A stretch of DNA of 64,000 nucleotides from positions 682,001 through 746,000 of the forward strand of contig NZ_FPAF01000001.1 of assembly GCF_900116295.1 (NCBI RefSeq). Reading direction: 5' to 3'. Numbering within the stretch: the first letter of the stretch is position 1; each line of letters begins with the position of its first letter. The notes beneath the pieces were generated by a model. That model saw nothing but the letters and a program-made list of their open reading frames with translations. It did no database searches and was not told the origin of the DNA. Of this stretch, positions 4,156 to 63,494 are shown piece by piece. Source of the stretch: Bacillus sp. 103mf (GTDB lineage: Bacteria; Bacillota; Bacilli; Bacillales; Bacillaceae_G). The position numbers and the translations under genes are program-made.

Positions 4156-4352
4156 TATATAAATCCATTTTGATTTTTTAACATATCAGTCGCTGCTATG
4201 CAGAACAACACGTGATCTGCATTCGTTTTCTCTCTTTGTTTTAATTCTTGCATGTGGCAGGAAAAGGTCCTGACCGCTTCTATGCATGGCCAGATCCTCT
4301 CGCCCACCGAAAAAGAAAGACTTTTCTTATTTTTTAATTGGCATATATATTA
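4156..4352 (-). repeat. bcr1-type repeat (minus orientation)
   Basis: About 197 bp. It has the conserved core seen many times in this window (GTGGCAGGAAAAGG, CTGACCGCTTCTATGCATGG, CCAGATCCTCTCG) and AT-rich TATATAAAT ends. It matches my recollection of the bcr1 element of the B. cereus group. No coding capacity. Confidence 0.75.
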
Positions 4353-4358
4353 ATAATA

Positions 4359-4603
4359 GTAACTGCTCAGCCATACATTTCATTTGGAAGTTTGGTAAGG
4401 AGTATAATTCCAGCGAAAATACGCTAACCTATAATTGCTGCCATGAAGATAAAAATGGACCTACACCTCGCTGCCTTTCTTTGTTTTAAAACTTTGCGCG
4501 TGGCAGGAAAAGGCACTGACCGCTACTATACATAGCCAGTCCCTCTCGACCATTTAAAAAAATGCTTTTCTATCGTTTTTTCATAGAGTGACTGAATAGT
4601 TAC
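4359..4603. mobile_element. 245-bp MITE with IS66-like ends, intact copy
   Basis: It begins GTAACTGCTCAG and ends CTGAATAGTTAC, imperfect 12-bp inverted repeats starting 5'-GTAA. Flanks are TAATAATA and CAATAATA, an 8-bp duplication with one mismatch. A second copy at 25960-26308 has perfect ends and a perfect 8-bp duplication. GTAA ends plus 8-bp duplications are features of IS66-family insertion sequences. There is no room for a transposase. The right half carries a diverged bcr1-like core, so the element looks chimeric. Confidence 0.75.
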
Positions 4604-4617
4604 CAATAATAAATAAA

Positions 4618-11371: not shown

Positions 11372-11736
11372 ATATATAAATTGAAAAACGGCATAAAAAC
11401 CCTCTTTCTTTTTAGGGAGGCGAGAGCATCTGGCCATGCATAGAAGCGGTCATGACCTTTTTCTGCCACATGCGAGGTTAAAAAAAAGAGAAAAAACAAG
11501 TGCAAGTTCCTTTTTGTTCTGCATGGCAGTGGCTTATACAGAAAAGCGGAAGCGGCTCGCTCAGAACAAGAGGGGGATGGAGCTTCTGACATAGAGGCGC
11601 TTTTTGCCTCGGCGGAAGACGCGAAGCCACCGACTGTTCTAGCCGCTGGAGCTGGATCATAAAGAAAGGTGGAGCCGACAGGACTAGGAGGCAGAGCTAG
11701 ACAAAGATGTTGAAAAATTAAAATGAATTTATATAG
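11372..11736 (+). repeat. bcr1-type repeat interrupted by a family-3 repeat
   Basis: The bcr1 left part (11372-11538) has the ACGGCATAAAAACC start and the CTGGCCATGCATAGAAGCGG core. The right end resumes at 11706 (TGTTGAAAAATTAAAATG, then TTTATATAG). Between them lies an insertion of a GC-richer repeat (11539-11705). The rest of the 11271-11837 gap shows nothing else. Confidence 0.75.
11539..11705 (+). repeat. Family-3 GC-rich repeat inserted in bcr1
   Basis: It begins GAAAAGCGGAAGCGGCTCG, contains the hairpin AGAGGCGCTTTTTGCCTC and ends near CCGCTGGAGCTGGA. A shortened second unit (AAAGGTGGAGCCG to GAGCTAGACAA) follows. Two tandem copies occur at 50147-50390. No coding potential. Confidence 0.7.
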
Positions 11737-16640: not shown

Positions 16641-16821
16641 TATATAAATTTTTAAAAAGCGACATAAAAACCCCTTTCTTTTTAGGGAGGACGAGAGCAT
16701 CTGGCCGTGCATAGAAGCGGTCAGGACCTTTTCTTGCCACATGCGAGGTTTAAAACAAAGGGAACATGCATTCTGTATAGCAGCAACTCATATGTCGAAA
16801 AATGAAAATGGATTTATATAG
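16641..16821 (+). repeat. bcr1-type repeat (plus orientation)
   Basis: Full-length copy from TATATAAATT to ATTTATATAG with GCGACATAAAAACCCC, CTGGCCGTGCATAGAAGCGG and TTGCCACATGCGAGG blocks. It sits just downstream of the nucleotidase gene and just before the terminator of the following minus-strand gene. Confidence 0.75.
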
Positions 16822-17334: not shown

Positions 17335-17388
17335 GTGAAACTTCTATCTTTAAGCATCTTACTGCTCATTCGTGCGGGATAAAGTTAT
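17335..17388 (+). repeat. Short family-2 repeat
   Basis: It starts GTGAAACTTCTATC and ends GTGCGGGA, flanked by TAAC and TAAA (3 of 4 matching). It is a shortened copy of the element seen complete at 22696-22844. It occupies the divergent promoter region and reaches into the open frame of the HTH/RHH gene. Confidence 0.6.
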
Positions 17389-18554: not shown

Positions 18555-18597
18555 GTGAAACTTCTATCAATCGAACTCTTACTGCCTACAAGTAGCG
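18555..18597 (+). repeat. Decayed short family-2 repeat
   Basis: GTGAAACTTCTATCAATCG at the left and AGTAGCGAAA at the right keep the ends of family 2, but most of the interior is missing and no duplication is recognisable. Confidence 0.5.
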
Positions 18598-22695: not shown

Positions 22696-22844
22696 TCCCG
22701 CATTAACGGGCAGTAAGACCCCCACCTCAAGATTGAGAGAGAAGCGAAGAAGATAGGTGGGGGTCTTACTGCCCGTAAAAGCCCGATTGGTTCAACTAAC
22801 CATCAGTGGGGGATGAAAAAAACCTCCACTGATGGAAGTTTCAC
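22696..22844 (-). repeat. Family-2 repeat, full-length copy in a palindromic target
   Basis: Read on the minus strand it starts GTGAAACTTCCATCAG and ends ATGCGGGA. It has a strong hairpin (CATCAGTGG/CCACTGATG) and a second stem (ACCCCCACCT/AGGTGGGGGT). It is flanked by TTTA on both sides (22692-22695, 22845-22848), and outside that by GGTACAAA and TTTGTACC, which formed a hairpin before insertion. The remainder of the 22599-23018 gap has no gene. Confidence 0.8.
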
Positions 22845-23018
22845 TTTATTTGTACCAATAATTACTTCAGCTTTACTCGTCATTCGAGGTGTTTGGATAT
22901 GTAAAATTTCATTCCAGAAAAACAAAATTGGTAACTCGTGTAATAAAAGGTAATTTTATGATATAATTATATTACAAAAGTTTACAAAATAATTAGACAG
23001 ACAGAAGGAGAAGTTGAG

Positions 23019-24151: not shown

Positions 24152-24335
24152 TATATAAATACAAATTAAAAAACCTTTCCCTTTTAGATGGGTAAGGGGA
24201 TCTGGCCATGCATAGAAGCGATCAGTTCCTTTTCCTGCCACGTACACAGGTTAAAATAAAAGAAGAAAGCAATTGCAGGTCATGTTTTGCAGAGCAGAGA
24301 CTGATATGTCGAAAAACTAAAATGTATTTATATAG
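24152..24335 (+). repeat. bcr1-type repeat (plus orientation)
   Basis: Full copy from TATATAAATACAAATT to TATTTATATAG with the CTGGCCATGCATAGAAGCG core, downstream of the serine hydrolase gene. Nothing else is seen in 24114-24452. Confidence 0.75.
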
Positions 24336-25922: not shown

Positions 25923-25959
25923 ACTTTCACCTCATTTTAGACGCTATATAAAATTTTTC

Positions 25960-26308
25960 GTAACTACTCAGCCATACATTTCATTTAGAAGTTTGGTAAG
26001 GAGTATAATTCCAGCGAAAATACGCTTACCTATAATTGCTGCCATAAAGATAAAGTGAAACTTTAATCAGTGGGGGTTTTCTTCATCCCCCACTGATTAT
26101 CAGCCCTCACCAATCAGGCTTTTACGGGCAGTAACACTCCCACGAATAGCGGAGTAAAAATGGACCTACACCTCGCTGCCTTTCTTTATTTTAAAACTTT
26201 GCGCGTGGCAGGAAAAGGCCCTGACCGCTACTATACATAGCCAGTCCCTCTCGACCACTAAAAAAAATGCTTTTCTATCGGTTTTTCATAGAGTGACTGA
26301 GTAGTTAC
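25960..26308. mobile_element. IS66-like MITE, second copy, carrying a family-2 insertion
   Basis: The ends are perfect 12-bp inverted repeats GTAACTACTCAG/CTGAGTAGTTAC. They are flanked by a perfect 8-bp duplication AATTTTTC (25952-25959 and 26309-26316). Without the 104-bp insertion at 26055-26158 the copy is 245 bp, the same as the copy at 4359-4603, and the two are nearly identical. No transposase gene is present. Confidence 0.85.
26055..26154 (+). repeat. Family-2 repeat (100 bp) inside the MITE
   Basis: It starts GTGAAACTTTAATCAG and ends ATAGCGGAG. TAAA flanks it on both sides (26051-26054, 26155-26158). The other MITE copy shows the unoccupied site with a single TAAA, so the 4-bp target duplication is read directly. 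Confidence 0.85.
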
Positions 26309-26450
26309 AATTTTTCTACACTAGTATAACAAATTTATTCTCTTCGCTAATGCATGATTTAAGCTCCCCTTTATTTTCATACAATTCTTCACATTCAAAT
26401 ATTTTTTTATAGCCTTTTGTCTTTTTTGTGCTATAATGTGAGCAAACAGC

Positions 26451-29845: not shown

Positions 29846-30046
29846 CTATATAAATACAAATTTTAAAAACGACATACCCCCCTTTTTTTAGGGGAGGGCG
29901 AGAGCGTCTGGCCGCGCATAGGAGCGGTTGGGGCCTTTTCCTGCCACATGCCAGGTTTAAAACAAGAGGCGCAGACAAGTAGCCGGCATATTATATTCTG
30001 CATATGAGCAATTTGTTTGTTAAAAAATCAAAGTGTATTTATATAC
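29846..30046 (+). repeat. bcr1-type repeat inside the rib operon, first of two
   Basis: Plus orientation, from TATATAAATACAAATT to GTATTTATATAC. It carries the ACGACATACCCC start, CTGGCCGCGCATAGGAGCGG and CCTGCCACATGCCAGG blocks. It begins 7 bp after the ribBA stop. Confidence 0.75.
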
Positions 30047-30229
30047 AATTTGAAAAACGGACATTACAAAACCTTTCTTTTTGGGCGGGCGAGAGCATCT
30101 GGTCATGCATAGAAGCGGCCAGGACCTATTCCTGCCACATACAAAGTTTAAAACAAAGGTTTAAAGCGAGAGCAGGTCTTATTTTTCTTTTCACAGCAGT
30201 CACTTCTATATTGGAAAAATTAAAATAAA
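30041..30229 (+). repeat. bcr1-type repeat inside the rib operon, second of two
   Basis: Plus orientation, head-to-tail with the first copy and sharing its TATAC boundary. It ends AAATTAAAATAAATT, 4 bp before the ribH ribosome-binding site. The two copies are clearly diverged from each other, so they are not one recent tandem duplication. Confidence 0.75.
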
Positions 30230-31310: not shown

Positions 31311-31454
31311 TCCCGCATTAACGGGCAGTAAGACCCCCACCTCAAGATTGAGAGAGAAGCGAAGAAGATAGATGGGGGATAACTGCCCATAAAAGCCCGA
31401 TTGGTTCAACTAGCCATCCGTGGGGATAAAGCCCCCCACGGATGGAAGTTTCAC
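31311..31454 (-). repeat. Family-2 repeat at the bioB stop codon
   Basis: On the minus strand it starts GTGAAACTTCCATCCG and ends ATGCGGGA. TTTA flanks it on both sides (31307-31310, 31455-31458), and the right copy contains the bioB stop (TAA on the minus strand). Both inner hairpins are preserved. Confidence 0.8.
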
Positions 31455-31455
31455 T

Positions 31456-32454
31456 TTATAATGCACATTCCTCAATTTCAAACCCTAAATCTTCAATCAT
31501 TCCCCAATCTGCTGTTGGCTCTTGGCCAGCAGTTGTTAAATAATCGCCAACGAAGATTGAGTTTGCCGCAAATAAGCCAAGAGGTTGAACAAATCGTAAA
31601 TTGATTTCACGTCCGCCAGAAATACGAATTTCTTTTGACGGATTCACAAAACGCATCATTGCTAATACTTTTAAGCACTGCATTGGTGTTAATTCTTTTT
31701 GTCCTTCTAACGGTGTTCCTTTTACAGCAACAAGGAAGTTACATGGTATAGAATCTGCATCTAAACGATTTAATTCAAATGCAATCTCTACGCGTTGTTC
31801 CTTCGTTTCACCCATTCCGAAAATAGCACCAGAACACGGTGATATACCCGCATGCTTCGCTTTTTCAACTGTATCAACACGATCGTCATACGTATGAGTT
31901 GAACAAATGCTTTCGTAATTATCTACATGTGTATTTAAATTATGATTGTAACGATGTACACCAGCTTCTGCAAGGCGCTGCGCTTGATCTTCATTCAAAA
32001 ATCCTAAACAGCAACAAATCTTCAAATCAGTCGTTTCGCGGATTTCTTTTACAGCTCCAATAACATGCTCTACTTCTTTATTAGTTGGGCGACGACCAGA
32101 AGCAACGATACAATATGTACCTGCCTTACGCCTGATTGCTTCATGCGCACCTTCTACAATCTTCTCTTGTGTTAACCAAGCATATTTATCAATCGGAGCT
32201 TCTGATACGATTGATTGGGAACAATACCCACAATCTTCTGGACATAAGCCTGACTTCGTATTAATAATCATATTTAGTTTTACTTTTTTTCCGAAATAAT
32301 GATGACGAATCACATACGCCGCATTCATAATTTCTAAAATTTCTTCGTCATTTGCTTGCAAAATACTTAGTGCCTCTTCTTTCGTTACCTCTCTTCCCTC
32401 TAATACTTCAAATGCGATTTGCTTCCAATCTGTTTTCGTTTGTACATGTTTCAT
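31456..32454 (-). CDS. bioB: Biotin synthase
   Basis: A 332-residue radical SAM enzyme that inserts sulfur into dethiobiotin. The radical SAM cluster motif is CPEDCGYC at about residues 72-79. The second 2Fe-2S cluster ligands are expected in the later conserved CCCLGF, SGAIFGMGE and RISGGREINL regions. The start ATG 32454 lies inside the end of bioC (47-nt overlap), behind GGGGAAGAG. It is the last gene of the operon, and its stop codon forms part of a family-2 target duplication. Confidence 0.97.
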   Translation of the reverse strand: MKHVQTKTDWKQIAFEVLEGREVTKEEALSILQANDEEILEIMNAAYVIRHHYFGKKVKLNMIINTKSGLCPEDCGYCSQSIVSEAPIDKYAWLTQEKIVEGAHEAIRRKAGTYCIVASGRRPTNKEVEHVIGAVKEIRETTDLKICCCLGFLNEDQAQRLAEAGVHRYNHNLNTHVDNYESICSTHTYDDRVDTVEKAKHAGISPCSGAIFGMGETKEQRVEIAFELNRLDADSIPCNFLVAVKGTPLEGQKELTPMQCLKVLAMMRFVNPSKEIRISGGREINLRFVQPLGLFAANSIFVGDYLTTAGQEPTADWGMIEDLGFEIEECAL

Positions 32455-43000: not shown

Positions 43001-43255
43001 GTAAGCGGGGGTCCTACTTATGGTTATATAAATACAAATTAAAAACCAACATAAAAGCCTCTTTCTTTTTAAGTGAGCTAGAGCGTCTGGCCATGCATAG
43101 AAACGGTCAGTTCCTTTTCCTGCCACGTGCAATATTTAAAACAAAATGAGAAAGCAAGTGGAGGTCATGTTTTATTCTGCATAGCAGCGACTTAAATATT
43201 GAAAAATTAAAATGAGTTTATATAGTTGAACCAATCGGGTCCTTACAGGCGGTTT
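42986..43255 (+). repeat. Family-2 repeat interrupted by a bcr1 repeat
   Basis: The left part (42986-43025) runs from GTGAAACTTCCAT to ACTTATGG. The right part (43225 on) resumes GTTGAACCAATCGGG. Between them lies a complete bcr1. The right end is truncated or diverged, so no duplication can be defined. Confidence 0.65.
43026..43224 (+). repeat. bcr1-type repeat nested in family 2
   Basis: Full-length bcr1 from TATATAAATACAAATT to GAGTTTATATA with the CTGGCCATGCATAGAAACGG core. Uninterrupted family-2 copies read ...TGGTTAGTTGAACC across the junction, which fixes the insertion point. Confidence 0.75.
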
Positions 43256-55485: not shown

Positions 55486-55690
55486 TATATAAATACAAAT
55501 TAAAAAATCGACATAAAAGTTCTCTTTCTTTTTAGACGGGCAAGAGCATCTTGGCCATGCATAGAAACGGTCAGGGCTTTTTTCTGCCACATGCAAGGTT
55601 GAAAACAAAAGGAGAAAGCAAGTAGCGGTCATGTTGTATTCTGCATAGCAGCAACTTATATGCTGGAAATTTAAAATGGATATGTATATT
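55486..55690 (+). repeat. bcr1-type repeat (plus orientation)
   Basis: Complete copy upstream of sdaAB with TCGACATAAAAG, TTGGCCATGCATAGAAACGG and CTGCCACATGCAAGG blocks. The rest of the 55409-56006 gap (55691-55963) is AT-rich and shows no gene or further repeat. Confidence 0.75.
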
Positions 55691-63319: not shown

Positions 63320-63494
63320 CCCTGTGTATAAAAACTCTTTTTAAGTTGGCGAGAGCACCTGGCCATGCATAGAAGCGGTCAGAGCCTTTTTCTGCCACGT
63401 ACGAGGGTGAAAACGAAAGAAGGAAACAAGTGCAGGTCATGATTACTACATAGCAACGACTTATATGTTGAAAAATGAAAATAGATTTATGCAG
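63320..63494 (+). repeat. bcr1-type repeat (plus orientation)
   Basis: CTGGCCATGCATAGAAGCGG core with TGTGTATAAAAACTC at the left and AGATTTATGCAG at the right, ends somewhat decayed. It is the only feature in the 63174-63576 gap besides the upstream region of prli42. Confidence 0.7.

Follow-up and report, generated by a model that had tools for sequence, protein, structure and literature searches.

The bcr1 repeat was reportedly described by Okstad in 2004 as a unit of about 155 bp with TTTAT at each end, and the title of that report is said to call it specific to the Bacillus cereus group. Elsewhere in print, bcr1 is a MITE-like repeat with TTTAT motifs in genomes of the B. cereus group (PMC6542083, PMC3446304); lengths of 147 and 167 bp are given for bcr1-type repeats (PMC2267715), and copies are also present on plasmids (PMC6542083). 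In the accessible portions of this literature, the movement of bcr-type repeats is related to the TTTAT motif and to possible site-specific recombination by a serine or tyrosine recombinase, and is taken no further. Judged by titles and abstracts, with subscription papers mostly uncovered, no report states the insertion rule set out below (N^TAAA) or an IS200/IS605-like mechanism for bcr1, and none describes bcr1 outside the B. cereus group or a link to the Bacillaceae-1 RNA. A search of paper texts for the letters of the element returned nothing relevant.

Several other systems bear on such repeats. For IS608 and ISDra2 of the IS200/IS605 group, insertion takes place 3' of TTAC or TTGAT, duplicates no bases and favors a particular base at +1 (PMC5934647, PMC8612924). 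T-rich pentamers, TTTAT among them, are the sites downstream of which group A IStrons insert (PMC4227781), REP repeats have a size of 20-40 bp (PMC3733652), and Bacillaceae-1 is entered in a table of PMC2864571.

The insertion analyzed here belongs to a repeat family termed family 2 and is located in a window of 64,000 nucleotides (the whole stretch of DNA analyzed) from Bacillus sp. 103mf, where it interrupts one of two copies of a MITE. MITE copy 2, which harbors the insertion, is 349 bp long (25960..26308, + strand) with the ends GTAACTACTCAG...CTGAGTAGTTAC and the flanks AATTTTTC, and MITE copy 1, which provides the empty site, is 245 bp long (4359..4603, + strand). When aligned, they show about 96% identity on either side of one 104-bp gap. 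At the site, copy 1 reads GATAAAAATGG (GA-TAAAAATGG, junction 4449/4450) and copy 2 reads GA-TAAA-GTGAAACTT...AATAGCGGAG-TAAAAATGG, the extra 104 bp being located between two TAAA. The sequence-only reading of this DNA had contrasted a single TAAA in copy 1 with TAAA, an element and TAAA in copy 2, and had noted that 349 minus 104 is 245; sequence and alignment bear out the former, and the latter is exact.

With borders set by the N^TAAA rule, the element is a 104-bp sequence, TAAA-GTGAAACTT...GCGGAG (26051..26154, + strand). Sites in other genomes suggest that the left TAAA (26051..26054, + strand) is the element's own end and that the right TAAA (26155..26158, + strand) is the original target; in sequence and alignment, the counterpart of the latter in the empty copy is 4450-4453, within the unoccupied target A^TAAA (4449..4453, + strand). 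The 104-bp insert is a family-2 member without genes and with a shortened interior; because it terminates in G (GGAG|TAAA, not GGGA|TAAA), it shows just TAAA, not ATAAA. The paired TAAA around this copy are probably not a duplicated target, because related copies use a fixed four-letter site and appear to bring their own copy of it.

With about 96% identity, the two MITE copies could recombine with each other, and the pair might be explained by loss or gain of the insert through homologous recombination instead of transposition. However, loss between two TAAA would need very short homology, and gain by recombination, an objection that the sequence-only reading had itself raised, is unlikely because this junction recurs at many loci, the flanks of which are unrelated. 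The other objection it had raised, a site with both TAAA present and the element lacking, was not seen within the window. Overall, a recombinational origin of the pair is extremely improbable.

The full ends of the host MITE are GTAACTRCTCAG...CTGARTAGTTAC. By eye, copy 2 is bordered by 8-bp direct repeats AATTTTTC (25952-25959 and 26309-26316) and copy 1 by TAATAATA/CAATAATA (4351-4358 and 4604-4611; 7/8 matching). Because of the 8-bp direct repeats at its borders, the host MITE, unlike family 2, does look like a target-duplicating MITE. Sequences similar to the MITE's 3' half (GTGGCAGGAAAAGGCCCTGACCGCTTCTATGCATGGCCAGATGCTCTCGCC) are present at 13 further places in the window with about 72-82% identity, which is very dense for 64 kb (4230, 11382-11493, 14688, 16654-16760, 24197-24260, 29883-29962, 30051-30158, 43038-43180, 50892, 55503-55611, 59135, 61819 and 63338-63399); one pattern taken from this half gave 0 matches in viral_contigs.

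The window contains further members of family 2. Similarity and sequence identify two full-length copies with ATAAA at both ends, one of 153 bp (22696..22848, - strand) and one of 148 bp (31311..31458, - strand); a copy without the far end is recognized by similarity (50045..~50125, + strand), and a pattern scan detects a 49-bp short form with the left core ATAAC and the right core ATAAA (17335..17383, + strand) and a remnant of the GTGAAACTT end (18555..18573, + strand). The common unit of about 150 bp consists of (A)TAAA-GTGAAACTT, a hairpin, the spacer CCAATCGGGC, a second hairpin and GCGGG-ATAAA. The lengths of 141 complete units extend from the 40-59 bin up to 520, most commonly 140-179 bp, and the short forms keep both ends and have lost the interior. 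None of the copies examined contains genes. A full-length copy has one hairpin near each end, and terminal inverted repeats are absent by inspection, which agrees with the earlier statement that family 2 has no inverted ends.

The hairpin adjoining the GTGAAACTT end (TAATCAGTGGGGG...CCCCCACTGATTA) is located at 26064..26099 (+ strand) in the inserted copy and covaries in 30 full-length copies, an alignment comprising 28 of the 34 listed references and two window copies. In this alignment, 12 of the 31 predicted pairs have two-sided changes, and the GTGAAACT end is predicted to pair with AGTTGAAC. Long forms of 376-520 nt (L056, G408, G002) contain a common core with AAGTTTCACTGTATCTCACCAATCGGGC or a sequence close to it, the first nine bases of which are complementary to GTGAAACTT, and other long copies (L062, L097) contain different internal modules. 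In head-to-tail arrays (L017, L077, L119), units of about 140-155 bp have one ATAAA common to each junction.

At a prophage-side locus, the same insertion is present in 27 contigs (L329, L330, L332-L336, L338, L340, L341 and L369-L385), which, judged from neighboring genes, would belong to the B. cereus group. Three interiors are found, giving lengths of about 155 bp (n = 2), 104 bp (n = 8) and 101 bp (n = 17), and the 104-bp window copy is of the same shortened sort as the short forms at this locus. A search with one exact pattern did not find an empty form of the locus, all 27 right-flank contigs being occupied.

The covarying structure, together with the long forms, for which elaborate folds are predicted and in which an internal AAGTTTCAC is complementary to the 5' GTGAAACTT, might point to RNA-mediated mobility, in which a reverse transcriptase supplied in trans would turn the structured element RNA into DNA at ATAAA. 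However, a DNA strand with hairpin ends would give the same covariation, and the junction logic described below is explained without an RNA step. Also, at Rfam gathering scores, just Bacillaceae-1 is found inside the elements, the group I/II introns of the genome G408 being outside. This mode of mobility is thus regarded as quite improbable.

Analysis of the element ends defines the target motif. ATAAA is located directly before GTGAAACTT at 169 of 204 distinct left ends, the flank positions -6 to -25 of which are near background. At the right side, G-ATAAA is found at 96 of the 105 alignable ends (110 in all), where variation is underestimated because the alignment allowed at most one mismatch. 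The first core position is A in 94%, which corresponds to T at +1 on the other strand. The counts at the left and right ends indicate, therefore, that the motif has five bases, not four: the four-base TAAA of the sequence-only reading does not hold as the general motif across copies, which is the pentamer ATAAA. This pentamer is asymmetric, and the orientation of the element to it is fixed. A preference for hairpin loops at the targets was considered and rejected on the basis of 116 sites and 339 control ATAAA (p 0.65).

Sites lacking the element were sought in three genomes of one genus (G002, G408 and G410), two of which share about 90% identity with G002 along most of a 3-kb probe. A counterpart was required to retain both flanks, ungapped, in at least one relative, and 57 of 106 copies have a counterpart that lacks the copy in question. 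Together with the window pair, these three related genomes substantiate the mobility that had been proposed for family 2.

All relatives read ATAAA for 23 of the 57 copies, and at least one relative differs for the remaining 34. Eighteen of these 34 have ATAAA on both sides and are uninformative as to the side, eight fit a cut after core position 1 (copies 17, 22, 37, 52, 64, 84, 89 and 93), and seven fit no model. As copies 22 and 37 are one locus by synteny, the eight copies represent seven loci. For copy 43, cutting after position 4 or 5 would apply only if its occupied G002 relative were counted as empty. When seven models are compared, the cut after position 1 explains the highest number of copies (8) and duplication explains 0; cuts after positions 0, 2, 3, 4 and 5 explain 5, 5, 4, 5 and 4 copies, respectively. 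A clean set was obtained by limiting relatives to those with at least 80% identity (49 copies) and dropping neighbors of another copy (44 copies). In this set, 27 of the 44 copies have a variant relative: seven fit N^TAAA (copies 17, 37, 52, 64, 84, 89 and 93), none fits duplication, 14, with ATAAA at either side, are uninformative, and six fit neither.

Variants at position 1 (GTAAA, CTAAA and GTAAA; three loci) stay at the left with ATAAA at the right, and variants at positions 2-5 (ACAAA, AGAAA, ATTAA and ATAAC; four loci) stay at the right with ATAAA at the left; the left-side and right-side evidence is mutually independent. As variants are one-sided in both ways, the element is defined as TAAA-GTGAAACTT...GCGGG-A, which lands between N and TAAA. 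A first reading, in which the whole left pentamer was the target and the whole right pentamer was the element's, was dropped, as right-side variants matched the relatives. Seven copies have altered cores even though their relatives all read ATAAA, and these cores are read as probable later mutations. The N^TAAA rule comes from seven loci in one genus, which are few, and its application to the family in the window would be an extension of these results.

These junctions bear directly on the possibility that family 2 is a DDE-type MITE making a 4- or 5-bp duplication of a strongly preferred target. Direct ATAAA repeats at most copies agree with such duplication, the window pair looks exactly so, and the copies with ATAAA on both sides are compatible with it. 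However, target duplication explains 0 variant-target copies, with or without the identity and array filter, and an asymmetric target, fixed orientation and the lack of inverted ends are not what a DDE element whose ends are symmetric would show. A DDE-type MITE is very improbable, and the 4-bp target duplication claimed by the sequence-only reading is likewise not supported, fitting 0 of the 27 clean copies for which a relative's site differs from ATAAA.

The N^TAAA rule can be read on the opposite strand, where the target would be TTTA and the element would be TCCCGC...AAGTTTCAC-TTTA. The element would insert directly 3' of TTTA, keeping this TTTA in its left flank, and would supply its own TTTA at the right end, so that no bases would be duplicated. 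T is preferred at +1 next to TTTA, which gives the "TTTAT" motif. Such insertion could be performed by single-strand peel-and-paste, with an IS200/IS605-type Y1 transposase acting in trans on a non-autonomous element, and in a circular form the element ends would be joined as GCGGGA-TAAAGTGAAACTT. Head-to-tail arrays would arise because the target is regenerated at each end. The Y1-type mechanism and enzyme are what we infer from these features; a bcr1-like family that inserts 3' of TTTA, brings its own TTTA, duplicates no bases and depends, as a non-autonomous element, on a Y1 enzyme in trans is, on balance, a somewhat probable explanation.

Some of the same features could be generated if a serine or tyrosine recombinase acted on a circular form by conservative site-specific recombination, with crossover at A^TAAA. 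The core is common to the element and the target, arrays share cores, and the products would look similar for a double-strand recombinase that acts at a circle junction and leaves no overlap to segregate. However, just five bases are conserved and nothing is visible beyond them; at the seven loci, although few, variants assort to a single side in both ways and no heteroduplex overlap is apparent, and no recombinase gene is recurrent near orphan ends. This explanation is unlikely but not negligible.

In peel-and-paste insertion by a Y1 transposase, the preferred explanation, some lagging-strand bias would be in line with IS200/IS605 elements. The TTTA strand is located on the lagging-strand template for 131 of 214 copies in six genomes (p 0.001) and, with G412 added, for 138 of 228 copies in seven genomes (p 0.002). 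By genome, the numbers are 40/58 in G410, 29/42 in G417, 15/24 in G413 and 12/19 in G411; the bias is weak in G414 (12/22) and absent in G412 (7/14) and G409 (23/49). For these counts, dnaA was located and the terminus was assumed to be opposite, halfway around the chromosome; only listed positions, which are incomplete, were used, matches with two mismatches were excluded (in G413, also those with one mismatch), and G415 and G416 were unused. Orientation to neighboring genes shows no bias (--, 31; ++, 28; +-, 20; -+, 16; another 40 copies lacked flanking genes that could be used), and inspection of the alignment reveals no conserved guide tetranucleotide beside the hairpins.

An enzyme or autonomous copy was sought in several ways. 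No autonomous copy is present among LE-RE pairs 350-6000 bp apart, and a candidate 4.4-kb end pair in G408 was rejected as it spans ordinary genes, which by eye are mreB-like and flagellar-like. When open reading frames near orphan ends were clustered, the recurrent ones shown looked like housekeeping genes. Two IS200-type genes are located inside family-2 copies (L166:1340-2010 and L174:1350-2020), both after TTTAA; as candidates for the family's own transposase they were rejected, being separate insertions in opposite orientations.

Matches to Y1_Tnp are found in all 17 genomes profiled, some of them fragments or with stops, and in 293 of the 397 genomes of the order sample, so that they are common overall. 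G408 has a single Y1 match, placed among other repeats, and no linkage of Y1 transposases to family 2 was found. An end scan around long Y1 genes of about 170-220 aa (L168, L169, L177-L180, L187 and L188) detected no family-2 ends, L168 and L169 being also read by eye. In L169, a RAYT-like gene (1340-2080) is flanked by GGGGTCAGACCC repeats, and in L168, RAYT-like genes are in tandem; these genes are a separate REP-like system in Bacillus-like bacteria.

Of the 20 genomes with at least 20 copies, three (G077, G319 and G338) have no Y1_Tnp match. As some high-copy genomes thus show no Y1 match, it is conceivable that gene-less modular elements of 49 to about 520 nt, some with a nested Bacillaceae-1, have spread over Bacillus-like bacteria by peel-and-paste at TTTA performed by a non-Y1 enzyme, although this is rather unlikely.

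Family 2 is widely distributed. The GTGAAACTT-end pattern, searched with one genome per species, matches at least 120 stretches, and among the matches listed, all but two are from Bacillus-like genera according to their titles. The two exceptions are a 4.6-kb contig named Modestobacter (L044) and an acidobacterial contig with a different context (L115). Among 397 genomes sampled from the order of G001, 87 contain TAAAGTGAAACTTNNATCNGTGG at least once with no more than one mismatch, and 20 contain at least 20 copies. A close relationship of the window organism to the B. cereus group is indicated by its DeoB, which is a near match to the phosphopentomutase 3m8w, from a species presumably of this group. 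No genome near the window organism was found in the order sample. Among the plasmids and phages searched, matches comprise three plasmid records in all and 0 phage records; B. cereus-group plasmids gave no match with three family-2 queries (two from the window and one from the prophage flank) and one Peribacillus query. A Klebsiella grimontii plasmid (CP079755.1:221562-221624) matches a family-2 end over 67 bases with 83.6% identity, which is odd for a Bacillus-type repeat.

A relationship to a described RNA is also seen. In 280 kb of G408, all five matches to Bacillaceae-1 (RF01690) at the Rfam gathering score are inside family-2 elements, and nine other Rfam matches are all outside them; two adjacent group I introns (Rfam; L251:4954-5781) are likewise outside. 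Bacillaceae-1 is also found within element stretches at other loci, which were chosen for holding elements. In L006, L021, L039, L049, L119, L256 and L259, it is present on either strand, in different loops and sometimes more than once. Bacillaceae-1 RNA is one inserted module of long family-2 members, on either strand, and not the whole element. From its presence inside family-2 elements, this Rfam "small RNA" would seem to be at least partly a piece of a mobile element.

Family 2 can be compared with known systems. A DDE MITE has a target-site duplication and terminal inverted repeats, and neither is seen in family 2. Group A IStrons similarly have T-rich pentamers such as TTTAT upstream of their insertions, but they consist of a group I intron and IS genes with a TCAG end, and these are not found in family 2. 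Like REP repeats, family-2 elements are gene-less hairpin repeats, a type associated with Y1 transposases; unlike them, they are about 49-520 bp long, not 20-40, and the RAYT-like genes examined adjoin other repeats.

The IS200/IS605 elements IS608 and ISDra2 share several features with family 2: subterminal hairpins but no inverted ends, placement 3' of a fixed short target, retention of the target at the left with the element's own copy at the right, no duplication (seven loci with TTTA^N, 0 with duplication) and a +1 preference; a lagging-strand bias like theirs is seen in the pooled counts but not in G409 or G412. In contrast, the family-2 copies examined have no tnpA or tnpB of their own, no guide was evident by inspection and no source enzyme was found; nor, at the loci examined, are ends shared with a Y1-encoding element, as is typical of non-autonomous IS200/IS605 elements. 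Because no autonomous partner was found and 3 of 20 high-copy genomes have no Y1 match, family 2 is better said to work like an IS200/IS605-type non-autonomous element than to be a member of this group.

Family 2 resembles bcr1, which is also a small structured repeat with TTTAT (ATAAA on the other strand) motifs, a likeness of features and not of consensus sequence. A unit of about 155 bp, as reported for bcr1, is matched by the window copies of 153 and 148 bp and by prophage-flank copies of about 155 bp, all of which have ATAAA at both ends; TTTAT at each end corresponds to ATAAA at 169/204 left and 96/105 right ends, and a conserved secondary structure corresponds to the two-sided changes in 12/31 pairs. 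In contrast to the restriction of bcr1 to the B. cereus group, family 2 is present in many genera and in 87/397 genomes of the order sample, and whereas bcr1 on plasmids is described in print, the four queries used for family 2 have no match on B. cereus-group plasmids. Given this wide distribution, repeats of this kind are not diagnostic of the B. cereus group. The N^TAAA rule, insertion 3' of TTTA without duplication, is a sharp, testable statement that separates bcr-type repeats from the target-duplicating MITEs listed beside them. Overall, family 2 looks like a bcr-type repeat (bcr1-bcr3, group A repeats) in a wider and better defined form.
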